64,000 nt of DNA from positions 62,001 through 126,000 of the forward strand of contig NZ_VIGP01000001.1 of assembly GCF_009299795.1 (NCBI RefSeq), in the 5' to 3' direction. The notes under the pieces were generated by a model. It saw only the letters and a program-made list of their open reading frames with translations. It was not told the origin of the DNA and did not search any database. The position numbers were made by a program, and so were the translations under genes. This DNA comes from Brachybacterium subflavum. Its GTDB lineage: Bacteria > Actinomycetota > Actinomycetes > Actinomycetales > Dermabacteraceae. This document shows, in pieces, positions 41,714 through 57,970 of the stretch; positions within the stretch are counted from its first letter, which is position 1; every line of letters starts with the position of its first letter.

Positions 41714-42898
41714 TCAGCTCTGTGCGCGGATCGCCTTCGCGAGCCCCTGCACCCGGAACTGCTGGACGTGGTACGGCCAGTCCGGCCCGGTATGCCACTG
41801 GGAGACGGTGAGGTGCATGTCGTCGAGCGTGGACCCGGGGACGATGTACCCGCCGTAGAGCTGGGCCACGCGCTCGTCGTCCTCGTGGCCCCACTCGCAG
41901 CCCCACAGCAGGGTCTCGGCGAACGGGCTTTCGCGCAGCCCCGTCGCGGACGACGCGGCGAGCAGGTCGATCCGGTAGAGCCCCGCGTTGAAGAAGGTCA
42001 GCACGAAGCGGTCCTCGACCGCGCGCAGGCACATCTCGCCCACGGAGCCGCCGACCACGGGCTCCGGGTCCGCGCCCCATTCCCAGGTCGTCTTCGCCTC
42101 GTCGGTCGGCCCGTAGGTCTCGTAGGCGTCGGCCTCGAGGATCTTCGAGCTCTTCACGCGCTGCAGGATCGCGCCCTTGTCGCGCTGGAAGCCCGTGGTC
42201 AGCAGGTAGACCCAGTCGCTGTCGGGGTCCTTGCACCAGGTGGCCTGCTGGGACAGGCCTCCCAGGTGGTCGCCGGGGAACATCTTCGCGCCGCGCTCCC
42301 AGTTCTCGCCGGAGTCCTGCGACGTCCAGATCTCGGTGCGCACCACGTTGCCGAAGCCGGCGTTCGCGAGCACCCACAGGTGCATGGTGTCGCCCAGCGT
42401 GATCACGTCCCCGGGCAGGTAGGTGCTGATCTCGCCGCCGTGGTCGTAGTCGATGAGCTGCTCGGCGCGCTCGCCGCCCACTGCGCCCGTCCACTGCAGC
42501 CCGCCGACGGAGGGCCGCCTGCGATCCTTCGCATAGAGGGCGACGGGGGAGGTCCAGCGGCCGGAGCCGACCTTCGCGCCCTCGAAGGTGTCGCCGAAGA
42601 CCACGAGCAGGCGGCCGTCGGGCGTGCGGCAGGGGACGCCCAGGTCGGTCGCTTCGAACCCGTACGCGGTGGTGATGTCGGGGCCGGTGAGCGTCGCCGT
42701 GCGGGTGACGCGCGGGCGCTTGTACTCGGGGTTCGGCCGGGGCCTGGGCGCGGCATCGGCCGCGGGTGCGCCCGCCGTCTGCGCGAGGGCCGCGGCGCCG
42801 AGTGCTCCGGCGCCGATCGCGAGGGCTCCGCCGCGCAGCACGGAGGAGCGGGGGATCGGGGCGTCGTCGGTGTTCCGGTTCTCGGGTGCGTGGTGCAC
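41714..42898 (-). CDS. Secreted DUF4185 protein, GH183-type endo-D-arabinanase candidate
   Basis: A protein of 394 residues from the GTG at 42898 (GAAGGGG before it). The N-terminus PRSSVLRGGALAIGAGALGA and an Ala-rich AQTAGAPAADAAP form an export signal. DUF4185 features are plain: YGFEATDLGVPCRTPDGRLL then VVFGDTFEGAKVG, followed by beta-propeller repeats (IWTSQDSGENWERG, QATWCKDPDSDWVYLLTTGF). As I recall, DUF4185 proteins include the endo-D-arabinofuranases of family GH183 that cut the D-arabinan of mycobacterial cell walls. A LacI-type operator lies in its promoter, and the divergent gene is a GH172 enzyme, which supports that assignment. Confidence 0.82.
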   Translation of the reverse strand: MHHAPENRNTDDAPIPRSSVLRGGALAIGAGALGAAALAQTAGAPAADAAPRPRPNPEYKRPRVTRTATLTGPDITTAYGFEATDLGVPCRTPDGRLLVVFGDTFEGAKVGSGRWTSPVALYAKDRRRPSVGGLQWTGAVGGERAEQLIDYDHGGEISTYLPGDVITLGDTMHLWVLANAGFGNVVRTEIWTSQDSGENWERGAKMFPGDHLGGLSQQATWCKDPDSDWVYLLTTGFQRDKGAILQRVKSSKILEADAYETYGPTDEAKTTWEWGADPEPVVGGSVGEMCLRAVEDRFVLTFFNAGLYRIDLLAASSATGLRESPFAETLLWGCEWGHEDDERVAQLYGGYIVPGSTLDDMHLTVSQWHTGPDWPYHVQQFRVQGLAKAIRAQS

Positions 42899-42968
42899 GG
42901 GGGACCCCTTCGTCGGTGCGCATGCGCCGTCGCATGCGCACCGCACTGTACCGATCGCGGCCATCGCT

Positions 42969-42983
42969 GGCAATCGTTTACTC
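42969..42983 (-). promoter_or_regulatory. LacI-type operator before the DUF4185 gene
   Basis: GGCAATCGTTTACTC (minus strand GAGTAAACGATTGCC), 71 bases before the DUF4185 start. It matches GAGGAAACGATTACC seen twice elsewhere in the locus at 13 of 15 positions. It lies in the 303-bp divergent gap 42899-43201, which has no gene. Confidence 0.75.
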
Positions 42984-43130
42984 GGCCGACGTCGGGGTCA
43001 GGGTGCGCAAGGGCGGACAGGACCGGGCCGGCCCGATGGGCGCTTCGCGGCAGAGGGCGCGGCGACCTCGCCGTGCGTGCGCCGATCGCGTTTACTTCCC
43101 GCGTCCGCCGCTCTAGAGTGGCCGGAATCC

Positions 43131-43146
43131 GCGAAAACGTTTAGCG
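43131..43146 (+). promoter_or_regulatory. LacI-type operator before the first GH172 gene
   Basis: GCGAAAACGTTTAGCG, a palindrome-like site with the central ACGT common in LacI operators, 56 bases before the start codon. A half-site CGCGTTTACTT is found at 43087-43097. A TAGAGT at 43114-43119 could be the -10 element. Confidence 0.6.
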
Positions 43147-43201
43147 AGCCGCGGGGCCGCCCCTCCGTCGTCGGGGCGCGCCCGCGGAGAACGGGCTGCC
43201 G

Positions 43202-44383
43202 ATGCACGCGACCCCACCGCCGAAGCCTCCCTCGACCGGCCCGTCGGCCCCCGATCTCACCGTCCTCTCCGAGGCGCGGACCTTCTCGATCAGCGCCGAG
43301 AACCCCACCGGTGCCCCGGGCCGGGGCGGCCGGGCCGAGCGCGGTGAGCACGAGACCGCGTGGGCCTCGCGCGAGCTGCCGGTGGGATGGAAGAAGTCCC
43401 CGTGCATCGACCTGCCCGGCCGCAGCCGGCGCTCCTTCGTCGACGTCGAGGGGCCCGGGATCATCCAGCACATCTGGATCACCGTCCTGCCCGAGCACCT
43501 GCGCTCCCTCGTTCTGCGCATGTTCTGGGACGACGAGGAGGACCCGTCGGTCGAGGTCCCTCTCGGCGACTTCTTCTGCCAGGGCTGGGCCCGGTACGCG
43601 CCGGTCACCTCGCAGATGGTGACCGTCGCGCCCGCGGGCGGACTGAACTGCTACTGGCCGATGCCCTTCGCCCGCCGCGCGCGGATGGAGATCGAGAACC
43701 TCTCCACCGAGCCGGTCGAGGGCTTCTTCTACCAGGTCACCGGCTCCTTCGAGGATGTCACCGGACGCGATCTGCGCCTGCACGCGCAGTGGCGGCGCTC
43801 CGATCCCGTGGATGACCAGGCACCGCACGTCATCCTCGACGGCGTGCGCGGGGCCGGTCACTTCGTGGGCACCTACTTCGCCTGGGAGACCCACCGCACC
43901 GCCTGGTGGGGCGAGGGCGAGGTGAAGATGTACATCGACGAGGACCTCGAGGGCGCGGCGCCCGGCGAGGGCGGGGAGGGCATCGAGCCGCCGACGATCT
44001 TCCCGACGGTCTGCGGCACCGGCACCGAGGACTACGTGGGCGGCGCGTGGGCCTTCGAGCACCCCGCGGGCGCCTACGCCGAGTACTCGACGCCCTATCT
44101 CGGCATGCCGCAGGTGATCCGGCCCGACGGCTTCGGCGACTCCCTCACCCGCTTCGGGATGTACCGCTGGCACGTGCCCGACCCGATCCGCTTCCGCGAG
44201 CGCCTGCGCGTCACCGTCCAGGCGCTCGGCTTCGCCCGGCCCGTCGACGGGAAGGTCCGCTACCGGCCGCTGCGCGAGGACGTCGCCACCACGGCCTTCT
44301 GGTACCAGGGCGAGCCGCACGCGCCCTTCGCCGAGGACCCGCACTGGCAGGCCCCGACCTGGGACGGCCTCGATGTCACCTGA
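43202..44383 (+). CDS. DUF2961 protein, glycoside hydrolase family 172 (first copy)
   Basis: A protein of 393 residues with no signal peptide. The DUF2961/GH172 pattern: KKSPCIDLPGRSRRSFVDVE, GPGIIQHIWITV, the LGDFFCQGW strand, LNCYWPMPFARRARMEIEN, AWWGEGEVKMYIDED and the strongly conserved VCGTGTEDYVGGAW, whose Glu residues are catalytic candidates. Known family activities are alpha-D-fructofuranosidase and exo-D-arabinofuranosidase. It overlaps the next glycosidase by 11 bases and faces the DUF4185 gene. The ribosome binding site is weak. A second copy is at 52777. Confidence 0.9.
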   Translation: MHATPPPKPPSTGPSAPDLTVLSEARTFSISAENPTGAPGRGGRAERGEHETAWASRELPVGWKKSPCIDLPGRSRRSFVDVEGPGIIQHIWITVLPEHLRSLVLRMFWDDEEDPSVEVPLGDFFCQGWARYAPVTSQMVTVAPAGGLNCYWPMPFARRARMEIENLSTEPVEGFFYQVTGSFEDVTGRDLRLHAQWRRSDPVDDQAPHVILDGVRGAGHFVGTYFAWETHRTAWWGEGEVKMYIDEDLEGAAPGEGGEGIEPPTIFPTVCGTGTEDYVGGAWAFEHPAGAYAEYSTPYLGMPQVIRPDGFGDSLTRFGMYRWHVPDPIRFRERLRVTVQALGFARPVDGKVRYRPLREDVATTAFWYQGEPHAPFAEDPHWQAPTWDGLDVT

Positions 44384-45413
44384 GCCGCGGGACCCCCGGG
44401 GCGCGGCCACTGACTCGCCCGCCCCCGATGTGTCCGCCGTCGACCCGCCCGCCGTCGACCTGCCCGTGCGCCTCGTGCCCGGCCCCAAGCGCCGCCTGCT
44501 CGACGCCTCGCCGGGGCCGGGCGCGCCCTGGTACATCAACGACCACACGCTCGTGCGCGATGCGCACGGCACCTGGCACGCCTTCGGCATCTGGCACCCC
44601 GAGCCCGCCGCGCCGCTGGACGAGACCTTCTTCCTGCATGCCACGACCCTCTCGCTCGAGGATCCGCTCTGGAGCATCCACGACCCCGTGCTCCACGCCC
44701 GCACGGATATCGGGGAGACCCATGTCTGGGCGCCGCACGTGATCCGCCACGACGGCCGGTGCTGGATGTTCTACTGCGGGGGCACGGCCGACCACACCCG
44801 CTACCGCATCGAGCTCGCCACCAGCAGCGACCTGTTCACCTGGGAGCACCACCCCGGAGGCCCGCTCTGCGAGGACGGCTTCGACGCCCGCGACCCGATG
44901 GTGCTGCGCGACGGCGATCGCTGGCTCATGTACTGCACCCGCACCTCCCGTCCCGAGGGCGGCTTCCACGAGGTCTCCGTGCGCGAGAGCACTGATCTCA
45001 TCACCTGGGCGGAGCCGTCCGTCGCCTATCGGTCGACGCAGCAGGGCACCGTCGGCGGTCCCACGGAGTCGCCCTTCGTGGTGCCTGTGATGCCCGGCGG
45101 AACCATCGGCGTCGATCCCGCCGACGGGCTGATCGGCACCCGCGACGACCCGGGGACGGTCGACGGCTCCGCGGCCGACGGGCCAGTGGGATGGATCCTG
45201 TTCGTCTGCGAATCGGGGGAGTACGACCGCACCCTCGCCTACTTCTCGCGCGACCCCGAGCACTTCGAGGACGCCGGCCGGCTCGAGGTCGATCTCGACG
45301 AGCACTGCGCCGAGATCGTCGTCGACCCCGACGACCCCTCACGTCTATGGGTCACCGGCGGGGGCTGGGGGAGGGGCGGGCTCACGATCCGGCCGCTGGG
45401 GATCAGGGCCTAG
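44373..45413 (+). CDS. Five-bladed beta-propeller glycosidase-like protein (GH43/GH32 clan type)
   Basis: A protein of 346 residues. The catalytic triad layout of five-bladed propeller hydrolases is visible: APWYINDHTLVRDAHG with a base/nucleophile Asp, FDARDPMVLRDGDRWLMYC with the transition-state Asp, and GGPTESPFVV with the acid Glu. WAPHVIRHDGRCWMFYCGG is a typical blade repeat. No signal peptide. I cannot tell GH43-like from GH32-like by eye. Its 11-base overlap with GH172 means both act on the same sugar, most likely removing furanosyl units inside the cell. Confidence 0.82.
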   Translation: MSPEPRDPRGAATDSPAPDVSAVDPPAVDLPVRLVPGPKRRLLDASPGPGAPWYINDHTLVRDAHGTWHAFGIWHPEPAAPLDETFFLHATTLSLEDPLWSIHDPVLHARTDIGETHVWAPHVIRHDGRCWMFYCGGTADHTRYRIELATSSDLFTWEHHPGGPLCEDGFDARDPMVLRDGDRWLMYCTRTSRPEGGFHEVSVRESTDLITWAEPSVAYRSTQQGTVGGPTESPFVVPVMPGGTIGVDPADGLIGTRDDPGTVDGSAADGPVGWILFVCESGEYDRTLAYFSRDPEHFEDAGRLEVDLDEHCAEIVVDPDDPSRLWVTGGGWGRGGLTIRPLGIRA

Positions 45414-45491: not shown

Positions 45492-46397
45492 TCACTTCAG
45501 CCCGGCCATCTTGATGTTCGCGATGATCTGGCGCTGGAAGACCAGGAACAGGATGATGATCGGCGCGGCCGCGAGCGCGGAGCCGGCCATCAGCAGGCCG
45601 AGCTCGCTCGAGCGCTCGCCGCGGAAGTTCGCGAGGTACTGCTGGACCTGGAACAGGTCGGGGTTCGTGATGGTCAGGACCGGCCACACGAAGCTGTTCC
45701 AGTAGGCCATGAAGGAGCCGATGCCCACCACCACGAACGGCGCCTTCGACAGCGGCAGGAACACGCGGAAGTACACGCCCCAGCGCCCGCAGCCGTCCAC
45801 GCGCGCCGCCTCCTCGAGGCTCGAGGGGATGTTCAGGTAGAACTGGCGCACGAAGAACACGTGCCCGGCGGAGGCCAGTCCCGGCAGGATCAGCACCGCG
45901 AGGGTGTCGAGCATATACAGCTTGGTGACCACGATGAAGCTCGTGAGCAGGATCGTCATGCCGGGGATGAACATGGTCATCAGCACCAGCGGCCACACGA
46001 TCCGCTTGCCCACGAACTCCAGGCGTGCGAAGGCGTAGGCGGCCATGGAGTTGATCATGATCGAGCCGGTCGTGAAGATGACCGCGCCGAGCCCCGTGAT
46101 CGCCAGCGTCCGCACGAACGACGGGTCGCTGAGGATCTGGACGTAGTTCTGCACCTCCCAGACGTCCGGGAAGAACTGGAAGGGAGTGCGCACCACCTCG
46201 GTGCGCAGCTTGAACCCGGAGATCACCATCCACGCGAGCGGGAACAGCGCGAGGCCGACGATGATCGCGCCCGCGACGAACTTCAGGGCCAGGATCCCGG
46301 CGCGCGCGGGGGTGAGCCTGCGGCGGTGCCTGCTGCGCGTCGGGACGCGGGTCGGGGCATCGGGCTCGACGGCCGGGATGGTCGGTGCGATCGCCAT
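45492..46397 (-). CDS. Sugar ABC transporter permease (MalG-like), importer 1 of the arabinan-type locus
   Basis: A protein of 301 residues with six helices after an Arg-rich start (FVAGAIIVGLALFPLAWMVI). EAA loop SSLEEAARVDGCGRWGVYFR. It begins one base after the end of the partner permease and is the last gene of the operon. No ATPase gene is present. Confidence 0.92.
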   Translation of the reverse strand: MAIAPTIPAVEPDAPTRVPTRSRHRRRLTPARAGILALKFVAGAIIVGLALFPLAWMVISGFKLRTEVVRTPFQFFPDVWEVQNYVQILSDPSFVRTLAITGLGAVIFTTGSIMINSMAAYAFARLEFVGKRIVWPLVLMTMFIPGMTILLTSFIVVTKLYMLDTLAVLILPGLASAGHVFFVRQFYLNIPSSLEEAARVDGCGRWGVYFRVFLPLSKAPFVVVGIGSFMAYWNSFVWPVLTITNPDLFQVQQYLANFRGERSSELGLLMAGSALAAAPIIILFLVFQRQIIANIKMAGLK

Positions 46398-46398
46398 G

Positions 46399-47340
46399 TC
46401 AGTCCACCAGCTTCTCGGAGTTCACGATCCGGAAGATGATCGAGGAGATCGACCCGAGCACCACGAACAGCAGCAGCGCCGCCGCGATCGAGTACCCGAC
46501 GTAGGTGTCCTGCCGGAAGTGGTTGAAGATGAAGAGGTTCGGCAGCTCGGTGGCGTGCTGCGGCCCGCCCGCCGTCATCACCAGCGGCAGCTCGTACTGC
46601 TGGATCGAGCCCACGAACCCCGTGACCAGCAGGAACAGCAGCACGTTCTTGATCTGCGGGAGCGTGATGAACCGGGTGCGCTGCCACCACGAGGCCCCTT
46701 CGAGCTCGGCCGCCTCGTAGAAGCTCTGCGGGACGTCGAGCAGCGCCGCGATCATGATCAGCGTCGAGATGCCCAGTCCCAGCCAGACGGCCGGCAGCGC
46801 GATCGCGCCGAGCGCCCACCGCGGATCGCCCAGCCAGGCCTGGTTCGGCAGGCCCACGAGGTTGATGATCGCGTTGAGGATGCCGCCGGAGTAGTCGTAG
46901 ATCATCACGAAGGTGATCGAGGCGATCACGCCGGAGATCACCGAGGGGATGTAGATGCTGATCTTCAGGAGGGTGGAGACCTTCTGGGAGACCGAGACGG
47001 CGAGCGAGGCGATGAGGAACGAGAGCACGAGCGAGGCGGGCACCGTCATCAGCACGAACTCGAGGCCCCGCAGGATCGCCTGCCAGAACCGGTCGTCGCC
47101 GAGCACGTTCGCATAGTTCTTCCACGCCACGAACTGGGAGGGCGTGTAGAAGCTCCAGTCGAAGAAGCTCAGGTAGACGGCCTGGATCGCGGGCCACAGC
47201 ACGAAGACCGACAGCAGCACCAGCACCGGCGCCAGCATGATGTAGGCCATCAGCGAGTCCCGGCGCGGAGGCGCGGACCGCAGACGGTCCTTCGCCTCCG
47301 GCGTCGGGGTGGTCGCCGACGTCTCGTCGGCGACGCTCAC
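46399..47340 (-). CDS. Sugar ABC transporter permease (MalF-like), importer 1
   Basis: A protein of 313 residues from a GTG that overlaps the binding-protein stop by four bases (GTGA). Helices start at AYIMLAPVLVLLSVFVLWPA; EAA loop SFYEAAELEGASWWQRTRFI, with Glu-Gly in place of the more usual Asp-Gly. It forms the channel with the next permease. Confidence 0.92.
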   Translation of the reverse strand: MSVADETSATTPTPEAKDRLRSAPPRRDSLMAYIMLAPVLVLLSVFVLWPAIQAVYLSFFDWSFYTPSQFVAWKNYANVLGDDRFWQAILRGLEFVLMTVPASLVLSFLIASLAVSVSQKVSTLLKISIYIPSVISGVIASITFVMIYDYSGGILNAIINLVGLPNQAWLGDPRWALGAIALPAVWLGLGISTLIMIAALLDVPQSFYEAAELEGASWWQRTRFITLPQIKNVLLFLLVTGFVGSIQQYELPLVMTAGGPQHATELPNLFIFNHFRQDTYVGYSIAAALLLFVVLGSISSIIFRIVNSEKLVD

Positions 47341-48695
47341 TTCTCGTCCATCTCCTTGCGCACCTTCGCGAGCTCCTCGCGGTCGATGACCTTCTGGATC
47401 TCGGTGTTCGCCTTCTTCAGGGCGTCCTTCGCCGAGGCCTCGCCGGTCATGCCCGCCTGGATCGCATCGCCCATCGCCTCGTTGATGTCGAAGGGGTACT
47501 GCGACTCCGGGACGCAGTGGGGGACGATGTCCTCGAAGACCACCGAGGACCACGGCGCGTCCTTCGACTTCGGGTCCGCGTCGACCACGTCGGTGACCTT
47601 CTGCCGGGCGGGCGCCTTGGTGAACTGGGTGTCCACGAAGAAGGGCTTGAGGACCTCGGGATCCCCGCCGAGCGCCCAGCTGAAGAACGCGGCCGTGGCC
47701 TCGGGCTCCTTCGCCTTCGCGTCGATCAGCCACTTCATGTTGCCGATCGTCGAGATGGAGGTCGTGAGGTCGCCGTCGTTCTGGACCCAGGGCGCCATCC
47801 CCGTCTTCTCGACCATGTCCGGGTAGTCGGCGGCGATCTCCGACATCGCCCAGGAGCCCTGCGAGAGCATCGCGACCTTGCCCTCGCCGAAGGGCTGCGC
47901 GGAGTTGCCCGCGCCCAGCGGCTGACGGGGCATCCACGTGTTGTCCTGCAGGGTCTTGTAGAAGCCGATCAGGTCCTCGTACTTGGGGTCCTCCGCGTCG
48001 GCCTTCGACCAGTCGTCGGAGATCGGCAGGTGCCCGGCGACGTGCTCCTGCGAGGCGACCGTCGTCCAGCCGAAGGTGCCCGGGTCAGCGGCCGTGCCCA
48101 CGCAGAACTGCCCGTTCTTCATGAGCGGGGCGATCTTCTCGCACGCGTCGTACATCTCGTCCCAGGTCGTCGGCGGCTTCTCCGGGTCCAGGCCGGCCTT
48201 CTCGAAGAGCTCCTTGTTCCACAGCAGCGTCATCTGCGGCTCGAGCAGCAGCGGGAAGCCGTACCACTTCCCCTGGTACTGGGAGATCTCCTTGGCCTGG
48301 TCGGTGATCTCGTCGAAGACGGAGGCGTCGATGAGATCGTCCAGGGGGTGGAGGAGCCCCGTGCGGGCACCGGTGTCCAGGCGGCCCGCCTGGATGTACA
48401 TGTCCGGGGCGTTGCCGGCGGCCTGCGCGGCCTTGAGCTTCTGGTCCCAGGCGTCCGCGGGGATCACCTGGTAGTTGACGAACACGTCCTCCTGCGCGTC
48501 GTTGAAGTCCTCGACGACCTTCTTGTACCAGGCGTTCTCCGGGGTGGTGAATACCGAGCCCCAGAACTCGACGTTCGTGCGGTTCTTCGCCCTCGAATCC
48601 TTCGCCGTCTCGCCGGGCGTGCCGCTCCCGCATGCCGCCAGCGAGACGGCTGCCGCGCCGGCGGCCGCGGTGGTGAGGAGTGTCCTTCTGCGCAT
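47337..48695 (-). CDS. Sugar-binding lipoprotein, importer 1
   Basis: A protein of 452 residues from the ATG at 48695 (GAGAGAGG before it). Signal RRRTLLTTAAAGAAAVSLAAC with lipobox Cys. Family 1 binding-protein features: NVEFWGSVFTTPENAWYKKV, NAPDMYIQAGR, PLLLEPQMTLLWNKELFEKA and GKVAMLSQGSWAMSE. Two LacI-type operators lie in the 356-bp upstream gap 48696-49051, tying this importer to the GH172 regulon. Confidence 0.93.
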   Translation of the reverse strand: MRRRTLLTTAAAGAAAVSLAACGSGTPGETAKDSRAKNRTNVEFWGSVFTTPENAWYKKVVEDFNDAQEDVFVNYQVIPADAWDQKLKAAQAAGNAPDMYIQAGRLDTGARTGLLHPLDDLIDASVFDEITDQAKEISQYQGKWYGFPLLLEPQMTLLWNKELFEKAGLDPEKPPTTWDEMYDACEKIAPLMKNGQFCVGTAADPGTFGWTTVASQEHVAGHLPISDDWSKADAEDPKYEDLIGFYKTLQDNTWMPRQPLGAGNSAQPFGEGKVAMLSQGSWAMSEIAADYPDMVEKTGMAPWVQNDGDLTTSISTIGNMKWLIDAKAKEPEATAAFFSWALGGDPEVLKPFFVDTQFTKAPARQKVTDVVDADPKSKDAPWSSVVFEDIVPHCVPESQYPFDINEAMGDAIQAGMTGEASAKDALKKANTEIQKVIDREELAKVRKEMDEK

Positions 48696-48831: not shown

Positions 48832-48847
48832 GAGAAATCGTTTACGC
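48832..48847 (-). promoter_or_regulatory. LacI-type operator before importer 1 (proximal)
   Basis: GAGAAATCGTTTACGC, 137 bases before the binding-protein start. It shares the ATCGTTT core with the other sites of the locus. The surrounding gap 48696-49051 has no gene. Confidence 0.65.
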
Positions 48848-48977: not shown

Positions 48978-48992
48978 GGTAATCGTTTCCTC
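48978..48992 (-). promoter_or_regulatory. LacI-type operator before importer 1 (distal)
   Basis: GGTAATCGTTTCCTC; its reverse complement GAGGAAACGATTACC is identical over all 15 bases to the site at 52490-52504, 3.5 kb away. Confidence 0.8.
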
Positions 48993-49936: not shown

Positions 49937-50918
49937 GGGAGAACCGGCCTCCTCGTGTCAGCAGGAACATCGCGCCGGAGAACAGCAGCAGGAACGCGAC
50001 GAGGACCGAGCCGACGGCTGCCGCGTATCCCAGATCCCCGAAGAGGAACGCCTGCTGGTAGATATAGAAGATGAGCAGGGATGTCGAATTCGCGGGCCCG
50101 CCGCTGGTGAGCACGAAGATCATGTCCAGCCCGCCCGTGACGACCGCGACCATCGAGGTCAGCAGCACGAAGAAGCTCGTGGGGGCGAGCAGCGGCAGGG
50201 TGATGCGCCGGAGGCGCTGCCAGGCGCTCGCGCCGTCGATGCGCGCGGCCTCGTAGAGCTCGCCGGGGATGTCCTGGAGCCCGGCGAGGAAGATGATCAT
50301 GTAGTAGCCCATCTGCAGCCATACGGTCACCGCGATCACCGTGCCCAGGGCGAACCTCGGGTCGCCCAGGAACGAGATCCCGTCGAGGCCGACGACCGAG
50401 AGCAGCGAGGCGATCACGCCGGTGCGGTCGGTGAGCATGAACTGCCAGACCATCGCGACCACGACGATGCTGATCACGTACGGCAGGAACAGCGCGGAGC
50501 GGATGACGCCGACCGCCGGGAACTTCTGCTGGACCAGCAGTGCGAGCCCCAGACCGACGACGTAGATCAGCGGCACGAGAACCACCAGGTACAGCAGCGT
50601 CACGCGGGCGCTGTTCCAGAACTGCGGGTCCTTGACCATGCGGACGTAGTTGTCGATCCCGATGAACTCGAAGTTCCCGAACCCGTCGATCCAGAAGAAG
50701 CCCAGCACCACCGAGAGCGCCATCGGGATCGCGACGAACACGAGCAGGCCGACGGCGTCGGGGGCGAGGAAGAAGAGGGCGGCGCGGGTCTCCCGCTGCG
50801 CGCGGCTGGGGGCGCGGCCACGGCGTCGTCGACCGCTGCCGCCGACTCCCGTGCCCGGCGCGGCGGAGGAGTCGGCGCCCGCGCCGGCGGCTGCGTTCAC
50901 GTCTGCGGCGGCACTCAT
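49926..50918 (-). CDS. Sugar ABC transporter permease (MalF-like), importer 2
   Basis: A protein of 330 residues with a 45-residue Ala/Gly/Arg-rich cytoplasmic start, then ALFFLAPDAVGLLVFVAIPM. EAA loop LYEAARIDGASAWQRLRRIT. Its ATG overlaps the binding-protein stop by four bases. Confidence 0.92.
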   Translation of the reverse strand: MSAAADVNAAAGAGADSSAAPGTGVGGSGRRRRGRAPSRAQRETRAALFFLAPDAVGLLVFVAIPMALSVVLGFFWIDGFGNFEFIGIDNYVRMVKDPQFWNSARVTLLYLVVLVPLIYVVGLGLALLVQQKFPAVGVIRSALFLPYVISIVVVAMVWQFMLTDRTGVIASLLSVVGLDGISFLGDPRFALGTVIAVTVWLQMGYYMIIFLAGLQDIPGELYEAARIDGASAWQRLRRITLPLLAPTSFFVLLTSMVAVVTGGLDMIFVLTSGGPANSTSLLIFYIYQQAFLFGDLGYAAAVGSVLVAFLLLFSGAMFLLTRGGRFSHDD

Positions 50919-52321
50919 ACGAGGCTGCCTCCTTCATAGGTCTCGAGGTAGCTCTCGATGGTCTGCTGGGCGCGGTCGGACTCCTCGCCGGGGTCCCCGC
51001 CTCCCAGCTCGACGGACTGCAGGGCGTCGGAGACGGCCTTGTAGACGACGGGCGGGAAGCGGGGCTCGCCGCGTCCGGTCGGCAGGATCTCGTCGTGGAA
51101 GATCTTCTGGTGCTCCTCCGCGTAGGCGTCGTCGGCCTGCAGCTTCGCGTCGACCGAGCGCCGTGCGGGCATGTTGCCCTTGGCGGGGCCGTTCCAGGTG
51201 GCGATGTGGTCGATGGACTGCTCGTCCATGGATCCCAGGGTCTGCACGACGAAGCGGGCGGCGGCCTCCGGGTCGGTGCCGCGCGCGTTCACGCACCAGG
51301 CCCAGCCGCCCAGGATCGTGCTCGACTCCTTGCCCGGCGGCGGCGGCAGCGGCAGGACTCCGAACCTCTTGTCCGGTGCGTTCTGGGTCAGGTTCATGAC
51401 CTCCCAGACGCCCGACTCCCAGAACGCCGCGTAGCCGGAGGTGAAGGCCGAGACGATGTCGCCGTTGGCGGGGCGGGTGCGGGGCGTGGCGCCGGTGGAG
51501 ACGGCGCGGCCCCAGAGCTCGAGCGCGGCGCGGGGACCGTCGGCGTCGAAGACCGGACTCTGCGTCTTCGGGTCGATGACGTCCCCGCCGGTCTGCCACA
51601 CCCACGGGTAGAAGGTGAAGTTCTGGTAGTAGCCGGGGTCCACGTCGAGCACGAGACCGGTCGTGGAGCCCGTGCTGAGGGACGCGGCGAGCTCGAGCAG
51701 CTCGTCCCAGTCCTTCGGCAGGTCGCCCTCGGAGATCCCGTTCTTCTCGAGCAGGTCCGGGTCGTAGAAGAGGGCCAGCGGCTCCTGCTCCATGGGCAGT
51801 CCGAAGATCCTGTCCCCGTCGCGCCGCGTGGTGAGCGCCTCGGGGAAGTAGTCCGCGATCGCCTCCTCCTCCATGTACGGGGCGAGGTCCACGAGCACCC
51901 CTCCGTTGGCGTAGCGCAGATAGTCGCCGGGGGAGATGAGGAAGATGTCCGGGCCGTCGCCCGAGGCGAAGGCGACCGGCATGCGCTGGTTCATCTGGTC
52001 GCTCGTCATGTACACGGAGGTGATCTCGTGCTCGCCCGCGTCGTTCCAGCGGTCGATCGCCTTCTGGAACCAGTCGGACTGCGCGACGAGGTTCGGATCC
52101 TGCTGGGGCGCCGGGCTGTAGAAGTTCCAGAAGGTCAGCGGTCGGTCCGCGTCAGCGCCGCCGCACGCGCCGAGCAGCGGCACGCTCGCTGCCGCGGCGG
52201 CGCCTCCCGCCAGCAGCGAGCGCCGTGGGATCCGCCCGGCCGATCGCTGCGGGCGTCCGGTGGGCGGCGGCTCGAGCCGAGGCCGGGGAGAAGAGCGGCG
52301 GTGGGGAAGAGCAGGTGGCAC
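50915..52321 (-). CDS. Sugar-binding lipoprotein, importer 2
   Basis: A protein of 468 residues from the GTG at 52321, which has GAGGAGG in front. The signal is unusually late: 30 Pro/Arg/Ser-rich residues precede RRSLLAGGAAAAASVPLLGAC with its lipobox Cys, so an internal start is possible. Body motifs: LTFWNFYSPAPQQDPN, GDGPDIFLISPGDYLRYANG, GLPMEQEPLALFYDPDLLEK and ILGGWAWCVNARGTDPEAAA. First gene of importer 2, divergent from the second GH172 gene over two LacI-type operators. Confidence 0.92.
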   Translation of the reverse strand: MPPALPHRRSSPRPRLEPPPTGRPQRSAGRIPRRSLLAGGAAAAASVPLLGACGGADADRPLTFWNFYSPAPQQDPNLVAQSDWFQKAIDRWNDAGEHEITSVYMTSDQMNQRMPVAFASGDGPDIFLISPGDYLRYANGGVLVDLAPYMEEEAIADYFPEALTTRRDGDRIFGLPMEQEPLALFYDPDLLEKNGISEGDLPKDWDELLELAASLSTGSTTGLVLDVDPGYYQNFTFYPWVWQTGGDVIDPKTQSPVFDADGPRAALELWGRAVSTGATPRTRPANGDIVSAFTSGYAAFWESGVWEVMNLTQNAPDKRFGVLPLPPPPGKESSTILGGWAWCVNARGTDPEAAARFVVQTLGSMDEQSIDHIATWNGPAKGNMPARRSVDAKLQADDAYAEEHQKIFHDEILPTGRGEPRFPPVVYKAVSDALQSVELGGGDPGEESDRAQQTIESYLETYEGGSLV

Positions 52322-52489
52322 GGGGTTCCTCCTCGAACCGCGTCGATGGTGCGGCGGAGACGGGTCCGCCGACGTGTGCTCCTCGGAGCGCCGCCGGTGC
52401 CCGGCACCGATGATGCCCGGGCACCTGCATGCTTCTGCTGCACTGCGCGAAGGGCCTCGAGGGGCCCGGCGCCGTGGGAGCGACTCCGT

Positions 52490-52504
52490 GAGGAAACGAT
52501 TACC
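52490..52504. promoter_or_regulatory. LacI-type operator, importer 2 side of the divergent promoter
   Basis: GAGGAAACGATTACC, identical to the distal site before importer 1 in reverse orientation. In the 455-bp divergent gap 52322-52776, which has no gene. Confidence 0.8.
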
Positions 52505-52654
52505 GGACACCGTACGAATGAGCCCGGGCCGCGTCAACCGTCCTTTCGTCCCGGGTTCGCCGTACCCGACGCGCGCCACCGTTCTCCTGCGGATCCTCGG
52601 CGAATCCGGATCGCGTCGGCGCCTTGACCTGCCGGGCGCACCTCCGTACAGTCC

Positions 52655-52669
52655 GAGTAAACGTTTTTC
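52655..52669. promoter_or_regulatory. LacI-type operator, GH172 side of the divergent promoter
   Basis: GAGTAAACGTTTTTC, sharing GAGTAAACG with the site before the DUF4185 gene; 108 bases before the second GH172 start. Confidence 0.7.
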
Positions 52670-52776
52670 GCTCGACGGCTCCAGGCGTCGGCCCGCACCG
52701 TCCGCACCGCCGTGCGGTCACGAGGGCCCGAGCGCTCGCGAGGCCGTCGACCCCCGGCTCACGAAGGAGTGACCCC

Positions 52777-53958
52777 GTGTACGACCTCGCTGGTGCTTCC
52801 CCCGCTGCGCCTCCCACGACGCCCGCCGCGCCCGCCGCCTCCGCATCGTCGGGGCTCGCACGCCTGCGTCCCGTGCTCACCCGCTCCATCAGCCCGGAGA
52901 ACTTCGACGGGGCCCCCGGCGGCGGCGCCCGAGCGACCGAGGGGACCGGTGCGGCCAGCGCCCGCGACCTCGGTGTGGGCTGGAAGGTCTCGCCGAGCGT
53001 CGACGTGAGGGCGGGGGAGACCTTCGACCTCGCGGACATCGACGGCGCCGGCGTCATCACCCACATCTGGATCACCACGCACACGGACAACTGGCGCACG
53101 CTCGTGCTGCGCGCCTACTGGGACGGATCCGACGAGCCCGCCGTCGAGGTCCCCTACGGCGACTTCTTCTGCAGCGGCTGGAGCAGCTTCGCGCAGGTCG
53201 ACTCCCAGATGATCGCCGCGAACCCCCACGGCGGCTTCAACTCCTACTGGCCGATGCCCTTCCGCGACGGCGCGCGTCTGACCATCGAGAACACCTCCGG
53301 GGTCGACGCCCGCGTCTACTACCAGGTGACCTATGAGGTGGGCGGCGACCACAGCGAGGACGCCTACTTCCACGCCCAGTGGCGGCGCTCGAACCCGCTG
53401 GCGGACCGCACCCCGCACGTGCTCCTCGAGGGCATCGAGGGGCAGGGGCAGTACGTGGGCACCTACATCGCCTGGGGCGTGAACTCCAACGGCTGGTGGG
53501 GCGAGGGCGAGATCAAGTTCTACATGGACGACGACACCGAGCACCCCACCATCTGCGGCACCGGCACCGAGGACTACTTCGGCGGGGCCTGGAACTTCGA
53601 CATCCCCGGCCAGGGGTACACCGCGTTCTCGACGCCCTATCTGGGCATGCCGCAGATCATCCGGCCCGACGGCCTCTACTCCTCCCAGCAGCGCTTCGGG
53701 ATGTACCGCTGGCACGTCGCCGACCCGATCCACTTCGCGACGGGCCTGCCCAAGGTCGACATCCAGGCCCTCGGGTGGCGCTCCGGCTGGCGCTACCTGC
53801 CGCTGCGCGACGACATCGCCTCCACGGCCCTGTTCTACCTGGACCGGCCGACGACGCACCGTCCGCCGGCTCCCGACTTCGACGCCATGGAGGTGCACCT
53901 GGCCTCCGGCCCCGTGCCCGACATCGGCGCCACCCCTCCGCGCGACCCGCAGGACTGA
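52777..53958 (+). CDS. DUF2961 protein, glycoside hydrolase family 172 (second copy)
   Basis: A protein of 393 residues from the GTG at 52777, with AAGGAGTG before it. Same architecture as the copy at 43202: GVGWKVSPSVDVRAGETFDL, GAGVITHIWITTHTDNWRTL, FNSYWPMPFRDGARLTIEN, GWWGEGEIKFYMDDD and ICGTGTEDYFGGAWNFD. No signal peptide, so intracellular. By eye the two paralogues share roughly half their residues, with the active-site blocks nearly identical. It heads the operon that also has the isomerase and LacI regulator. Confidence 0.9.
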   Translation: MYDLAGASPAAPPTTPAAPAASASSGLARLRPVLTRSISPENFDGAPGGGARATEGTGAASARDLGVGWKVSPSVDVRAGETFDLADIDGAGVITHIWITTHTDNWRTLVLRAYWDGSDEPAVEVPYGDFFCSGWSSFAQVDSQMIAANPHGGFNSYWPMPFRDGARLTIENTSGVDARVYYQVTYEVGGDHSEDAYFHAQWRRSNPLADRTPHVLLEGIEGQGQYVGTYIAWGVNSNGWWGEGEIKFYMDDDTEHPTICGTGTEDYFGGAWNFDIPGQGYTAFSTPYLGMPQIIRPDGLYSSQQRFGMYRWHVADPIHFATGLPKVDIQALGWRSGWRYLPLRDDIASTALFYLDRPTTHRPPAPDFDAMEVHLASGPVPDIGATPPRDPQD

Positions 53959-54041: not shown

Positions 54042-55715
54042 ATGACTGCCACCGCAGACCCCACCGAGTCCCGCACCTACGCCCTGCCCGAGCGCGCGCA
54101 GCGCCCGTCGGCCGCCGAGGGGGAGGTGTGGCTGATCCCGAGCGGTGACCTGCGCGAGAGCGCGAACACCGAGTCGTGGGGCGCGCAGCAGGAGCTCGAG
54201 CGGCAGGTCACGGAGGCGTTCGAGGTGGCGGGCGTGGGAGTGCGCCGTGCGTTCCAGGCGGATCCGGCCCTCGGGCACGGTTTCATCCGTTCGCAGCGGA
54301 TGGGCATGGAGGTGTTCCGGTCGATCCCGGTGGATGCTCCGCTGGTGGTGGCGACGGCGAACTGGCAGTACAGCCATCACGTGCTCGCGGGCCTGCGCAC
54401 TCACCAGGGGCCGGTGCTGACGGTCGCGAACTTCGCGCCGGAGTGGCCCGGTCTGGTGGGGCTGCTGAACCTCAACGGCGGGCTGACGAAGATGGGTCGG
54501 GAGTACTCGAGCATCTGGACGGTCGACGGGAGCGACGACTGGTTCCGCGAGGGCATCGCGACGTGGGCCCGCACCGGGACCCTCGAGCACGATGCCTCGC
54601 ACGTGAAGGAGCTTCCCGCCCTCGCGGACACCCCGGAGTCGCGGCTCGGGGTGGCGCTCGCGGAGCAGCTGATCGAGGACAAGGCCATCATCGGGATCTT
54701 CGATGAGGGCTGCATGGGGATGTACAACGCGATCATCGACGACGAGCTGCTGAACCCGCTGGGGATCTATAAAGAGCGGCTCTCGCAGTCGGCCCTGTGG
54801 GCGGAGATGCAGACGGTCCCCGACGAGGAGGCCGATGCGGTGGGCCGCTGGCTCACCGAGGCGGGGATGACGTTCCGCCTGGGCACGGATGAGGCGACGG
54901 AGCTCACGGAGAACCAGCTGCGCTGGCAGTACAAGATGTACATCGCCGCCCTGCGCATCAGCGACGACTTCGGTCTGGACGCGGTGGGCATCCAGTACCA
55001 GCAGGGACTCAAGGACGTGTGCCCGGCCTCGGACCTCGTCGAGGGGCTGCTGAACAACCTCGAGCGTCCGGAGGTGACCAGCCGCGACGGGAAGCGGGTG
55101 CTGTGGGAGGGCAAGGCCCTGCCGAACTTCAACGAGGTCGACGAGGGCGTCGCGGTCGATGCGCTGATCACGAACCGGGTGTGGTCGGCGATGGGCATGG
55201 ACCCGGCGACCACCCTGCACGACGTGCGCTGGGGAGAGGACTTCGACGGGCAGTACGTGTGGGTCTACGAGATCTCCGGCTCGGTGCCGCCCAGCCACCT
55301 GCCCGGCGGGTACGCGGGCGCGGAGGGATGGCGGCAGGGGCCGACGTTCTTCCCCGCGGGCGGGTCCACGATCAACGGGGTCTCGCGGCCCGGGGAGATC
55401 GTGTGGTCCCGCGTGTACATCGAGGACGGCGGGCTGCACGCGGACGTGGGCCGCGGCCGGGTCGTGGAGCTGCCGGAGGCCGAGGTCACGCGCCGCAAGG
55501 AGTCGACGAACCCCGAGTGGCCGATCGCGAGCGTGGTCCTGGACGGCGTCTCCCGCGACCAGTTCATGGCACGCCACAAGGCCAATCACGCCCAGCTGGT
55601 CTACGCTGACAGCGCCGCTGCGGCGGACCGGGCGCTGACCGCGAAGGCCGCCATGTTCGACCGCCTCGGCGTGCAGGTCCACCTCTGCGGCGACGCCACC
55701 GTCCTCCAGAGCTGA
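54042..55715 (+). CDS. FucI/AraA-type sugar isomerase (fucose or D-arabinose isomerase-like)
   Basis: A protein of 557 residues from the ATG at 54042 (GAAGGAG before it). It reads as a member of the L-fucose/L-arabinose isomerase superfamily: an N-terminal Rossmann-like domain (VEVWLIPSGD-type start, VVATANWQYSHHVLAGLRTH), then the central domain with metal-ligand acids in IFDEGCMGMYNAIIDDELLN and a later IQYQQGLKDVCPASDLVEGL. FucI enzymes also convert D-arabinose to D-ribulose in E. coli. Placed directly after GH172, this would handle the released D-arabinose. The matching D-ribulokinase is not in the window. Confident of the superfamily, not of the substrate. Confidence 0.82.
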   Translation: MTATADPTESRTYALPERAQRPSAAEGEVWLIPSGDLRESANTESWGAQQELERQVTEAFEVAGVGVRRAFQADPALGHGFIRSQRMGMEVFRSIPVDAPLVVATANWQYSHHVLAGLRTHQGPVLTVANFAPEWPGLVGLLNLNGGLTKMGREYSSIWTVDGSDDWFREGIATWARTGTLEHDASHVKELPALADTPESRLGVALAEQLIEDKAIIGIFDEGCMGMYNAIIDDELLNPLGIYKERLSQSALWAEMQTVPDEEADAVGRWLTEAGMTFRLGTDEATELTENQLRWQYKMYIAALRISDDFGLDAVGIQYQQGLKDVCPASDLVEGLLNNLERPEVTSRDGKRVLWEGKALPNFNEVDEGVAVDALITNRVWSAMGMDPATTLHDVRWGEDFDGQYVWVYEISGSVPPSHLPGGYAGAEGWRQGPTFFPAGGSTINGVSRPGEIVWSRVYIEDGGLHADVGRGRVVELPEAEVTRRKESTNPEWPIASVVLDGVSRDQFMARHKANHAQLVYADSAAAADRALTAKAAMFDRLGVQVHLCGDATVLQS

Positions 55716-55758: not shown

Positions 55759-56769
55759 ATGAACGTGCGCCGACCGACGATCCTGGATGTCGCGAGCGCG
55801 GCCGGGGTCTCGACGGCCACGGTCTCGCGCGTCGTGAACGGCGCGCAGAACGTCGACAAGGAGCTCAGCCGGCGGGTGCGATCGGCCGTGCGCTCCACCG
55901 GCTACGTGCCCAACGCCGCGGGCCGCTCCCTGCGCAGCGGCGCCTCGGCCCAGGTCGCCGTCGTCACGCCCGACGCCGAGAACCCCTACTTCACGCGGGT
56001 GATCAGCGAGGTCGAGCGGATGGCGCGCGGCCAGGGCTACTCGGTGATGGTCGCCCACACCGAGGACGACCTGGAGCGCGAGCGCGAGGTGTTCCCGCAG
56101 CTGGTCAGCAGACAGGTCGCCGGGGTCATCCTCACTGTGGTCGACGAGAACCTCTCGGACGTGACGCCCCTGCTCGCGGCCGGGACGCCCCTCGTGCTGG
56201 TGGACCGCCGCGTCCACGGGGCCGACGTCGACCTCGTGGTCACCGACAACCTCGATGCCGGCCGCCGCGGCGCCCAGCACCTGGCCGAGCAGGGATTCCG
56301 CCGGCCCGTCGTCCTCGCCGGACCCGAGGGCCTCACCTCGACCGAGGACCGCGTGCGCGGCTTCCTGGCCGAGTGGTCGCGGGTGGGAGGAGCCGACGGC
56401 GGCCTCGAGGCGCCGCGCGTGACCCGCGGGGATCTGCATCTGGACTCGGGCCGCGAGGCCATGGCGGCCGTGCTCGCCGAGGAATGGGCCGACGCCGTCT
56501 ACGCGACGAACAATCGCATGTCGGCCGGTGCCTTCGAGGCGATGCGCGGGCTAGGGACCGCGCCGGGCCTGCTCGCCACCGACGACGACCTCTGGACCCG
56601 CCTGGTCACGCCCTCCGTGTCCGTGGTCCAGCAGCCCATCCGCGCGACGGGCCGCACGGCCGCGCGCCTGCTCGGCCAGCGCATGCAGGAGCCGGGGGAG
56701 GACCCCTCCACGATCCTGCTGCACCCGCGGATCCTCGAGCGCGAGTCCACGCGCCGCCGCGAGGGCTGA
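55759..56769 (+). CDS. LacI family regulator of the GH172 locus
   Basis: A protein of 336 residues, full length for the family. Helix-turn-helix PTILDVASAAGVSTATVSRV with hinge GYVPNAAGRSLRSG, then a periplasmic-binding-protein-like core (VAVVTPDAENPYFTRVISEV). The hinge keeps the residues that insert at a central CG step, in line with the AACG/CGTT core of the seven nearby operator-like sites. Last gene of the GH172-isomerase operon, so it would be autoregulated. Confidence 0.92.
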   Translation: MNVRRPTILDVASAAGVSTATVSRVVNGAQNVDKELSRRVRSAVRSTGYVPNAAGRSLRSGASAQVAVVTPDAENPYFTRVISEVERMARGQGYSVMVAHTEDDLEREREVFPQLVSRQVAGVILTVVDENLSDVTPLLAAGTPLVLVDRRVHGADVDLVVTDNLDAGRRGAQHLAEQGFRRPVVLAGPEGLTSTEDRVRGFLAEWSRVGGADGGLEAPRVTRGDLHLDSGREAMAAVLAEEWADAVYATNNRMSAGAFEAMRGLGTAPGLLATDDDLWTRLVTPSVSVVQQPIRATGRTAARLLGQRMQEPGEDPSTILLHPRILERESTRRREG

Positions 56770-56802
56770 GGCGGCAGCGCCGCGACCCACCGAGAAGACG
56801 GA

Positions 56803-56853
56803 ACGCGCCGCCGATCGGAACTTGTTCGCCCCATGTTCCGATCGACGGCGCGT
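56803..56853 (+). terminator. Stem-loop after the LacI gene, 19-base arms with one mismatch
   Basis: ACGCGCCGCCGATCGGAAC pairs with GTTCCGATCGACGGCGCGT apart from one position; 13-base loop; begins 34 bases after the stop. Confidence 0.75.
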
Positions 56854-56968
56854 GAAGGTCGCGACTGCTGGCGGGTTCCCACCGCGTCAGCGACATCCGT
56901 GGCACCTGTGGAGCGACTGCGACACGCTCCGTTCGGTGCGAGCACTACGTTATCCGCGCCGTCTCGGG

Positions 56969-56992
56969 TTTCGCAAGCCCTGTGTTGCGAAA
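56969..56992 (+). promoter_or_regulatory. Inverted repeat upstream of the aldo/keto reductase
   Basis: TTTCGCAA and TTGCGAAA, perfect 8-base arms with an 8-base spacer, 76 bases before the start. Different from the LacI sites of the locus, so probably bound by another regulator. The 298-bp gap 56770-57067 holds this site, the terminator and no gene. Confidence 0.6.
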
Positions 56993-57067
56993 AGTTCCGC
57001 GGGGTGGCCGGGGTTCGTCAGATGGACGCCTCGACCGCGCTCTCACCTGCGGCGTTACCCTTCAGGT

Positions 57068-57970
57068 ATGACAGCGATCACGCGCCGCATCGGCTCCCTC
57101 TCCGTCTCGGCCCTCGGGTACGGGGCGATGCCCCTGTCCTACGGCCGCCAGAACCCGCCCACCCATGACGAGGCGATCGCGACGATCCATGCGGCGCTCG
57201 ACGCCGGGATCACGCTCATCGACACCGCGGACATGTACGCCCCCAGCTGGGACACGATGGGGCACAACGAGAAGCTCGTCGCCGAGGGCGTGCGCACCTG
57301 GTCCGGCGACGCGAGCCGGGTCGTGATCGCCTCCAAGGGCGGCATCGTGCGCGGCCCGGGCAAGGATGGCGAGGAGGAGTCCAAGGGCAGGGACGGCTCG
57401 CTCGCCTATCTGCGCTCGGCCCTCGAGAAGACGCTGACGAACCTCGGCCAGGACTCGGTGGACCTCTACTACTGGCACCGGCCCGACCGCTCCATCCGCT
57501 ACGCGGAGGGCGTCGAGGCCCTCGCGACCCTGCAGCAGGAGGGGCTGATCCGCGAGGTCGGCATCTCCAACGCGAACGTCGAGGAGATCGACGTGGCGCT
57601 CGAGGTGCTCGGCGAAGGCCGCCTCGCGGCGGTGCAGAACCAGTTCAGCCCGACCTTCTTCCACACGAGCCTCGGCGAGCTGCGCCATTCCCGCGAGATC
57701 GGTGCCGCGTTCGTGCCCTGGGGTCCGCTGGGCGGTGCCGGCGGCGGCGCGGCGGCCGTGGGCGAGAGGTTCCCGCAGATCGCGCGTGCGGCCGCGGCGC
57801 ACGGGGTGAGCCCGCAGCGGGTGGTCCTCGCCTGGGAGCTGAGCCTGGGTCCGCACGTGGTGCCGATCCCCGGCGCGGCCCGCCCCGCCTCGATCATCGA
57901 CTCGGCGCAGGCGCCGTCCCTGCAGCTGACGACGGCCGAGGTCGAGGATCTGAACTCGATCCTGGGGTGA
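57068..57970 (+). CDS. Aldo/keto reductase
   Basis: A protein of 300 residues. Start LGYGAMPLSYGRQ, then the AKR tetrad: Asp52 and Tyr57 in LIDTADMY, Lys90 in VIASKGG and His137 in LYYWHRPD. The NADPH site is in the C-terminal VVPIPGAARPASIIDSAQ. Close to the AKR subgroup of actinobacterial sugar or aldehyde reductases. It has its own promoter with a distinct palindrome, so its tie to the GH172 regulon is only by position. Confidence 0.92.
   Translation: MTAITRRIGSLSVSALGYGAMPLSYGRQNPPTHDEAIATIHAALDAGITLIDTADMYAPSWDTMGHNEKLVAEGVRTWSGDASRVVIASKGGIVRGPGKDGEEESKGRDGSLAYLRSALEKTLTNLGQDSVDLYYWHRPDRSIRYAEGVEALATLQQEGLIREVGISNANVEEIDVALEVLGEGRLAAVQNQFSPTFFHTSLGELRHSREIGAAFVPWGPLGGAGGGAAAVGERFPQIARAAAAHGVSPQRVVLAWELSLGPHVVPIPGAARPASIIDSAQAPSLQLTTAEVEDLNSILG

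Follow-up and report, generated by a model that had tools for sequence, protein, structure and literature searches.

The window analysed here, a stretch of 64,000 nucleotides from Brachybacterium subflavum (positions 62001-126000 of contig C1 in a 4.0-Mb genome of 25 contigs), carries at 41.7-56.8 kb a locus that is very probably a D-arabinan utilisation regulon of a known kind, operating by the full mechanism proposed below. The type of system is itself known, in a genus for which the texts searched do not mention it; the locus lacks glycoside hydrolase family 116 (GH116) and contains a candidate replacement, a GH43/GH32-like glycosidase. Comparison of gene distributions makes this protein a strong candidate to take the place of GH116 here. 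The presence of an EndoMA2-type GH183 enzyme, of a GH172 protein (GH172-B) retaining Asn253 and of an isomerase sharing 71% identity with its counterpart in the published Microbacterium arabinogalactanolyticum (Mi. arabinogalactanolyticum) locus, termed L046, makes D-arabinan the most likely substrate. An earlier annotation based on the nucleotide letters alone (the sequence-only reading) had proposed a D-arabinan locus, and the relationships described below support it.

Core enzymes of the locus

The locus comprises, from left to right, GH183 (minus strand), GH172-A (plus), the GH43/GH32-like gene (plus), importers 1 and 2 (both minus), GH172-B (plus), the isomerase (plus) and a LacI regulator (plus). 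The open reading frame list and a Pfam profile search of the window revealed that all named frames are intact, and the gene inventory previously given (a DUF4185 protein, two DUF2961 proteins, a propeller glycosidase, two importers, an isomerase and a LacI protein) stands in full. Signal peptides were judged by eye from the translations: a signal-peptide-like stretch is present in GH183, and none is visible in GH172-A, GH172-B, the GH43/GH32-like protein or the isomerase.

The GH183 gene (41714-42973, minus strand; PF13810, 207 bits), which probably starts inside the listed frame ahead of the signal-like stretch, encodes a predicted secreted endo-D-arabinanase of the EndoMA2 type. In Mi. arabinogalactanolyticum, the gene occupying the MIAR_33270 place is 47% identical to it over 330 amino acids and the one occupying the MIAR_33230 place 24% identical; MIAR_33270 and MIAR_33230 are EndoMA2 and EndoMA1, respectively (PMC10509167). 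These places were assigned from gene order; the EndoMA1 assignment fits the published numbering because setting one aspartate as Asp33 yields Asp at 51 and Glu at 243. Alignment to the EndoMA1 gene revealed that the catalytic residues Asp33, Asp51 and Glu243 are all kept in the window protein, as are the sugar-contacting Arg198, Leu292 and Tyr293, while Trp138 and Pro141 fall in an alignment gap. The aspartate nucleophile, aspartate acid/base and essential glutamate are thus present, in agreement with the previous assignment of the DUF4185 protein to GH183.

The two GH172 (DUF2961) proteins differ markedly from each other. GH172-B (52777-53958, plus strand; PF11175, 289.9 bits over the frame 52624-53958) likely starts at 52777, just downstream of a GGAG, although the frame opens at 52624. 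It matches the exo-α-D-arabinofuranosidase structure 8ic8 of the Protein Data Bank with 755.7 bits and shares 84% identity with the Mi. arabinogalactanolyticum ExoMA1 gene. Both the glutamate acid/base and the glutamate nucleophile are kept, and asparagine occupies the position of ExoMA1 Asn253, the specificity residue that corresponds to Gly299 in the fructose-accepting αFFase1 (PMC10509167). This strong orthology identifies GH172-B as the presumptive ExoMA1 orthologue and exo-α-D-arabinofuranosidase. GH172-A (43202-44383, plus strand; PF11175, 286.7 bits) scores 357 bits against ExoMA1 (8ic8) and 98.5 bits against αFFase1, and displays 48% identity to the ExoMA1 gene and 72-74% to three Brachybacterium orthologues. 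Its catalytic glutamate pair is kept, and alanine replaces Asn253 in all four aligned sequences (the window protein and the three orthologues). By these comparisons GH172-A groups apart from the ExoMA1 orthologues, and the two proteins, which the sequence-only reading had treated alike, are to be separated: only the right-hand GH172-B is the ExoMA1 orthologue. Neither is of the αFFase1 type, which would be closest to αFFase1 with glycine at position 299; alanine or asparagine is found there.

These features bear on the highly improbable reading of the locus as one for fructans or difructose anhydrides, like that of Bifidobacterium dentium. The αFFase1 operon of B. dentium does contain LacI, GH32, GH172 and ABC (ATP-binding cassette) importer genes (PMC8605356), and the GH43/GH32-like protein of the window matches the GH32 profile. 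GH183, an ExoMA1 orthologue with Asn253 and an orthologue of a D-arabinan-locus isomerase are nevertheless present, and the genome has a separate locus of fructan type (L101). The fructan reading is rejected for the locus as a whole on account of GH183, Asn253 and the isomerase, but may still apply to GH172-A.

Two further GH172 genes lie outside the locus. The first (L101, 3846-11985 in the stretch C1:305000-318000) has alanine at the specificity position and is found beside a PfkB kinase and GH32, with LacI, binding-protein and permease genes recognised by eye; this looks like an α-fructofuranoside (fructan-type) locus. The second (L102, 5796-14383, contig C12) has aspartate at that position and lies beside a sulfatase and an α-L-rhamnosidase, with a second sulfatase-like gene recognised by eye. 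It may represent a third GH172 specificity.

The predicted D-arabinose isomerase (54042-55715, plus strand; PF02952, Fucose_iso_C) is related to that of L046, where the gene order is GH172 / LacI, FGGY kinase, GH116, isomerase. The C domain scores above its cut-off in the window protein. Fucose_iso_C was identified in 42 of 42 aligned relatives and Fucose_iso_N1 in 17 of the 42. Single-sequence searches returned no solved relative at E 0.001, and the profile reached one solved entry, a D-arabinose isomerase, at a non-significant E of 0.11. The metal ligands of Escherichia coli FucI are presumably Glu337, Asp361 and His528. In weak, alignment-dependent comparisons, His528 lies opposite an invariant histidine in both of two alignments and Asp361 opposite an invariant aspartate in one, while Glu337 lies opposite an invariant aspartate in both and is probably misaligned. 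The protein is classed, by its domain and relatives, as a remote FucI-type protein.

No D-ribulokinase-type kinase was found within the locus, and no FGGY gene separates GH172-B from the isomerase in the window. Elsewhere a kinase of the published-locus type (at least 250 bits) occurs in 57 of 80 isomerase loci, and it sits between GH172-B and the isomerase in two (L019, L020) of the seven loci nearest the window's (L017-L022 and L025). The genome itself has eight FGGY kinase genes. No NCBIfam pentulose-kinase or ribulokinase model reached its cut-off for any of the eight, so the kinase was picked by comparison with the gene of the published locus. This yielded one good candidate, C2:21197-22732, with 54% identity and 499 bits (next best, 108 bits). 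The absence of a D-ribulokinase, as previously noted, therefore holds for the window but need not hold for the organism. D-ribulose would be the substrate of this kinase, as its resemblance to the published kinase suggests. We considered it as a moved orthologue of the L019/L020 kinase, which is not clearly so, as identities of 57.6% and 55.6% are no closer than that to Georgenia (61.6%).

The GH43/GH32-like protein and the exo-β step

In the published system, complete hydrolysis of D-arabinan was achieved with EndoMA1, ExoMA1 and the GH116 exo-β enzyme ExoMA2 together, and exo-α GH172 was inactive on the intact β-capped substrates tested (PMC10509167). GH116 (PF04685) has no match in the B. 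subflavum genome. The complete route to D-ribulose previously proposed is supported for the endo, exo-α and isomerase steps, for which orthologues are present, while the exo-β step had been omitted and its GH116 enzyme is absent. The propeller glycosidase had been noted and given no role; it is now the best candidate for that step.

This protein (44373-45413, plus strand) exceeds the Pfam cut-offs of both GH43 (PF04616, 43.3 bits) and GH32 (PF00251, 40.1 bits). Among solved structures, a profile built from five members scored best with GH43 entries (56 bits); those of GH32 type reached ~32 bits. No variation occurs at Asn56-Asp57, Arg173-Asp174-Pro175 or Thr231-Glu232-Ser-Pro-Phe across 23 sequences, namely the window protein and 22 others, a set that omits four of 26 foreign homologue loci (L104, L105 and L177, with an internal stop or short frame, and L109, a duplicate of L179). 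Asp57, Asp174 and Glu232 could plausibly serve as an Asp/Asp/Glu triad, and GH32 also has the Arg-Asp-Pro motif. On these profile matches, the proteins appear as a divergent group relative to GH43 and GH32 glycosidases, and no tested member of the group was found. β-D-arabinofuranose is β-D-fructofuranose minus the C1 hydroxymethyl, so a propeller from the GH32 side is a chemically reasonable source of a β-D-arabinofuranosidase; by analogy, this relation would parallel that of α-D-arabinofuranose and α-D-fructofuranose for GH172. We give roughly even chances to the proposal that the window protein is an exo-β-D-arabinofuranosidase acting in place of GH116.

The distribution of the two families was analysed in 396 tool-drawn genomes of the order (thresholds: E of 1e-20 or better for GH183 and the GH43-like protein, 1e-10 for GH116), in which GH183 occurs in 36, GH116 in 29 and the GH43-like protein in 12. 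The 36 GH183 carriers comprise 23 with GH116 only, 10 with the GH43-like protein only (all Brachybacterium), one with both (G210) and two with neither (G053, and G255 at 75% completeness). GH116 is found in five of the 360 genomes without GH183. Within Brachybacterium (27 genomes), the GH43-like protein occurs in 11, GH183 in 10, all of them among the 11, and GH116 in none. The nearest GH183 and GH43-like matches are 90-4207 bases apart in 10 of 10 genomes; the order of called genes in G293 matches that of the window, minus GH172-A and plus a second GH183. Fisher values of 2.7e-6 (alternation among GH183 carriers) and 1.3e-6 (within the genus) ignore kinship and are descriptive.

A second set comprised 49 isomerase-bearing genomes, from 50 loci hand-chosen out of 80 (33 with a GH172-B-like match, three with a GH43-like match and 14 others); since these were hand-chosen, the alternation rests on the 396-genome sample. 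Brachybacterium sp. EE-P12 is in both samples (G001, G237), and other genomes may overlap too. In this set, 32 genomes carry GH183 (E of 1e-30 or better), of which 19 have GH116 only and six the GH43-like protein only (five Brachybacterium-type genomes and Nocardia jiangxiensis). The 17 without GH183 divide into four with the GH43-like protein only, two with both, one with GH116 only and 10 with neither.

Outside Brachybacterium, the GH43-like gene directly precedes the kinase in Nocardia jiangxiensis (L168). In Ornithinimicrobium (L164), Micromonospora costi (L166) and Dactylosporangium (L169) it belongs to the same cluster as the isomerase. This association with D-arabinose genes in other families points to D-arabinose as the product. 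By eye, the Micromonospora and Ornithinimicrobium proteins are longer, with a signal-like N-terminus.

A galactofuranosidase role is the main rival for the GH43-like protein. The locus would still serve D-arabinan, with the protein acting on galactan as an exo-β-D-galactofuranosidase (or other side-chain enzyme) and the β-D-arabinofuranose caps left uncut or removed otherwise. The arabinogalactan backbone is a galactan, and galactofuranosidase activity has been described for a GH43_31 enzyme (PMC10115798). The alternation with GH116, the D-arabinose genes adjoining in the four loci just named and the match to the β-fructofuranosidase profile of GH32 argue against this role, which we regard as unlikely.

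Several observations weigh against the D-arabinan reading or the exo-β assignment. In the 49-genome set, five of the 32 genomes with GH183 lack GH116 and the GH43-like protein alike, as the galactofuranosidase alternative would allow, and two have both; a β-acting enzyme is thus not always needed, or is not always one of these two. The GH43-like protein occurs without GH183 in six of the 49 genomes, four of these without GH116, and in one of the 360 genomes without GH183 of the order sample (G195). As the GH43-like-only side of that sample is one genus, it may reflect one evolutionary event. E. coli FucI is only distantly similar to the isomerase (BLASTP E of 0.023; hhalign probability of 11.7). 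The contig of the C2 kinase is devoid of exact operator matches, and this kinase lies among short-chain and zinc dehydrogenase genes and, by eye, ribose-type transporter genes, so that it may serve a pentitol and may have been recruited from pentitol use.

In a further alternative, GH172-A, with alanine for the fructose-excluding asparagine, would be an enzyme of new specificity and the GH43-like protein its partner on one special end group. The end of GH172-A overlaps the GH43/GH32-like gene by 11 bases in the window, and the alanine kept throughout the aligned GH172-A proteins would suit such a pair. Across 14 Brachybacterium stretches (the window of 64 kb, the others of up to 20 kb), however, the GH43-like gene is found in 14 and GH172-A in only five (the window, L159, L160, L162 and L198). 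In G095, G293, G390 and G407, moreover, the GH183 and GH43-like matches are 529-869 bases apart, and the GH172 enzymes tested in PMC10115798 are α-specific. We consider this partnership distinctly improbable.

Operators, importers and neighbouring genes

The LacI-family regulator (55759-56769, plus strand; PF00356 and PF00532) presumably binds GTAAWCGWTT operators. Exact sites in the locus precede GH183, in the interval between it and GH172-A (GTAAACGATT, 42972-42981, minus strand), importer 1 (GTAAACGATT, 48836-48845, minus; GTAATCGTTT, 48979-48988, plus), importer 2 (GTAATCGTTT, 52494-52503, minus) and GH172-B (GTAAACGTTT, 52657-52666, plus), and the motif scan also revealed an operator-like palindrome with one mismatch before GH172-A (43133-43144). 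Allowing at most one mismatch, GTAAWCGTTT gave 10 matches in the window (0.23 expected; none of 100 shuffles reaches 10), nine of them within the locus, spread over six places with some scored on both strands, and a tenth outside it (34917). A longer, looser pattern tried first gave six matches against 2.25 expected, a count reached by five of 100 shuffles. The motif was first spotted by eye in the locus and the window count is not an independent test; fairer support comes from the whole-genome count and from recurrence in related loci. Genome-wide, GTAAWCGWTT has six exact matches, five of them in the locus, and the reversed-pattern control has one. The motif recurs at 11 of 13 Brachybacterium loci that hold upstream sequence (the window, L157, L159, L160, L161 and L194-L199), ahead of either the likely GH43-like start or the leading gene of the run containing it, and is absent from that position in L158 and L200. 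No match was found in the Brachybacterium stretches L162, L019, L020 and L025, which start inside a cluster gene. Three of the four Microbacterium/Agromyces loci scanned (L029, L045, L046, L048) are without the motif; L045, from Microbacterium oxydans, has a single copy (4352) immediately ahead of its GH172 gene, though LacI there is only 36% identical.

Two sets of genes, each encoding a solute-binding protein and two permeases, constitute two sugar ABC importers, all on the minus strand. Importer 1 comprises permeases at 45492-46397 (98% in sister locus L198) and 46399-47335 (approximate start; frame 46399-47937; 90% in sister locus L195) and a binding protein at 47337-48695 (approximate start; SBP_bac_8, 110.5 bits). 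Importer 2 comprises permeases at 49052-49936 (99% in L198) and 49926-50918 (98% in L198) and a binding protein at 50915-52330 (approximate start; SBP_bac_1, 96.8 bits). The 16-kb block with shared operators described by the sequence-only reading holds for 41.7-56.8 kb and not for its last kilobase, which contains an aldo/keto reductase (57068-57970) with no operator match nearby.

Elsewhere in the window, positions 31041-36000 encode a SIS-type sugar-phosphate protein, a ROK kinase, a PfkB hexose kinase, a class II aldolase and an AgaR-like regulator, names that are best NCBIfam matches, mostly below cut-off. This looks like an amino-sugar or hexose set adjoining the locus. Mycobacterial arabinogalactan carries some galactosamine (PMC10115798), and a link between the two is a guess. 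The protein at 57992-60412 has cadherin-like and F5/8 type C domains and a long central stretch with no match; its F5/8 portion gives a weak match to a hyaluronidase module.

In the Brachybacterium stretches, where gene presence was rechecked by tblastn (as with the L199 copy of the GH43-like gene and a second GH183 in L195), relatives of the L197 pair of NamZ (exo-β-N-acetylmuramidase) and GH3 occur in seven of 14 (L157, L158, L194, L196, L197, L199 and L200); by tblastn the other seven, the window included, have neither. These families were confirmed by Pfam for some stretches; GH3 is of the NagZ type, its best NCBIfam name being β-N-acetylhexosaminidase, below cut-off. NamZ, GH3 and the GH43-like gene are consecutive on one strand behind an operator in L197 (7983-11349), an apparent operon, and these peptidoglycan-salvage genes also lie beside the GH43-like gene in L200 (14425-17530; G195), which is without GH183. 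The neighbourhood is suggestive of feeding on arabinogalactan-peptidoglycan fragments.

In five clusters from Micromonospora, Ornithinimicrobium and Rugosimonospora (L164, L165, L166, L167 and L171), large DUF2961 proteins accompany the GH43-like protein and, by eye, ribose-type ABC genes. The DUF2961 proteins of L164 and L165 display a weak fn3 match below cut-off, and a distant GH116 is also present in L166, L167 and L171. These clusters are possibly a secreted version of the pathway.

Proposed pathway and comparison with known systems

In the proposed mechanism, GH183 would cut the α-linked D-arabinan of other actinobacteria's arabinogalactan or lipoarabinomannan into oligosaccharides outside the cell, as orthology and catalytic residues suggest, and the two ABC importers would take these up. 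In the cytoplasm, GH172-B, on the strength of its orthology with ExoMA1, would strip terminal α-D-arabinofuranose, while the GH43/GH32-like protein, given its alternation with GH116, its location and its triad, may remove the β-D-arabinofuranose caps, the step of GH116 in the published system. GH172-A may contribute some further exo activity. By orthology, the isomerase would convert D-arabinose to D-ribulose and the C2 kinase D-ribulose to D-ribulose 5-phosphate, with LacI predicted to repress the promoters through GTAAWCGWTT until D-arabinose or a derivative is present.

Turnover of the organism's own wall, rather than feeding, has a very small probability. Mycobacterial GH183 enzymes do act on their own wall polymers (PMC10115798). 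The locus, in contrast, includes importers and a catabolic isomerase, and GH183 is present in only 10 of 27 Brachybacterium genomes, variability as expected for a food locus. Brachybacterium is not known to have D-arabinan, which also speaks against own-wall turnover.

The wider proposal, tentative and held at slightly less than even chances, is that the GH43/GH32-like protein founds a second, unrelated group of exo-β-D-arabinofuranosidases from the β-fructofuranosidase side of the five-bladed propellers, that it replaces GH116 in Brachybacterium and Nocardia jiangxiensis, and that the whole set equips its bearers to feed on the arabinogalactan-peptidoglycan wall of mycolic-acid bacteria. Within the D-arabinan literature covered, GH116 is the sole family with tested exo-β-D-arabinofuranosidase activity. 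If the proposal is true, a second, smaller enzyme would widen the set available for mycobacterial and corynebacterial arabinan and would help in structural studies of lipoarabinomannan and arabinogalactan. D-arabinan feeding would be extended to Brachybacterium, and the sister-species neighbourhood suggests that entire wall fragments from other actinobacteria serve as food. Among the matches listed, titles and abstract openings reported neither D-arabinan use by Brachybacterium nor, since 2023, a GH43- or GH32-type D-arabinofuranosidase, and Brachybacterium is named in the main text of neither PMC10509167 nor PMC10115798.

The closest known system is the D-arabinan locus of Mi. arabinogalactanolyticum, which is induced by D-arabinose and by cell-wall extract (PMC10509167). 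Both loci contain a secreted GH183, an ExoMA1-type GH172, an ABC importer and the isomerase; B. subflavum also encodes a kinase of this type, but outside the locus, on contig C2. In contrast with the published locus, the window has the GH43/GH32-like protein instead of GH116, an extra GH172, two importers and one GH183 (four are published); LacI is only 37% identical, and the L046 stretch gave no match to the window operator. The D-arabinan locus PUL42 from Dysgonomonas gadei (PMC10115798) resembles the window in its GH183, several GH172 proteins and a predicted fucose isomerase, which is abundant on D-arabinan, but is a Bacteroidota locus with a GH116 candidate noted by PMC10509167. The αFFase1 operon of B. 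dentium (PMC8605356) likewise combines LacI, a GH172 with a GH32 protein and an ABC importer; it differs in that its GH172 has Gly299, its substrate is difructose dianhydride I, no GH183 is among the operon genes listed and an isomerase is not mentioned in the main text. GH43 and GH32 glycosidases, finally, share with the window protein its matches to both profiles and the N-D, R-D-P and T-E-S-P motifs.

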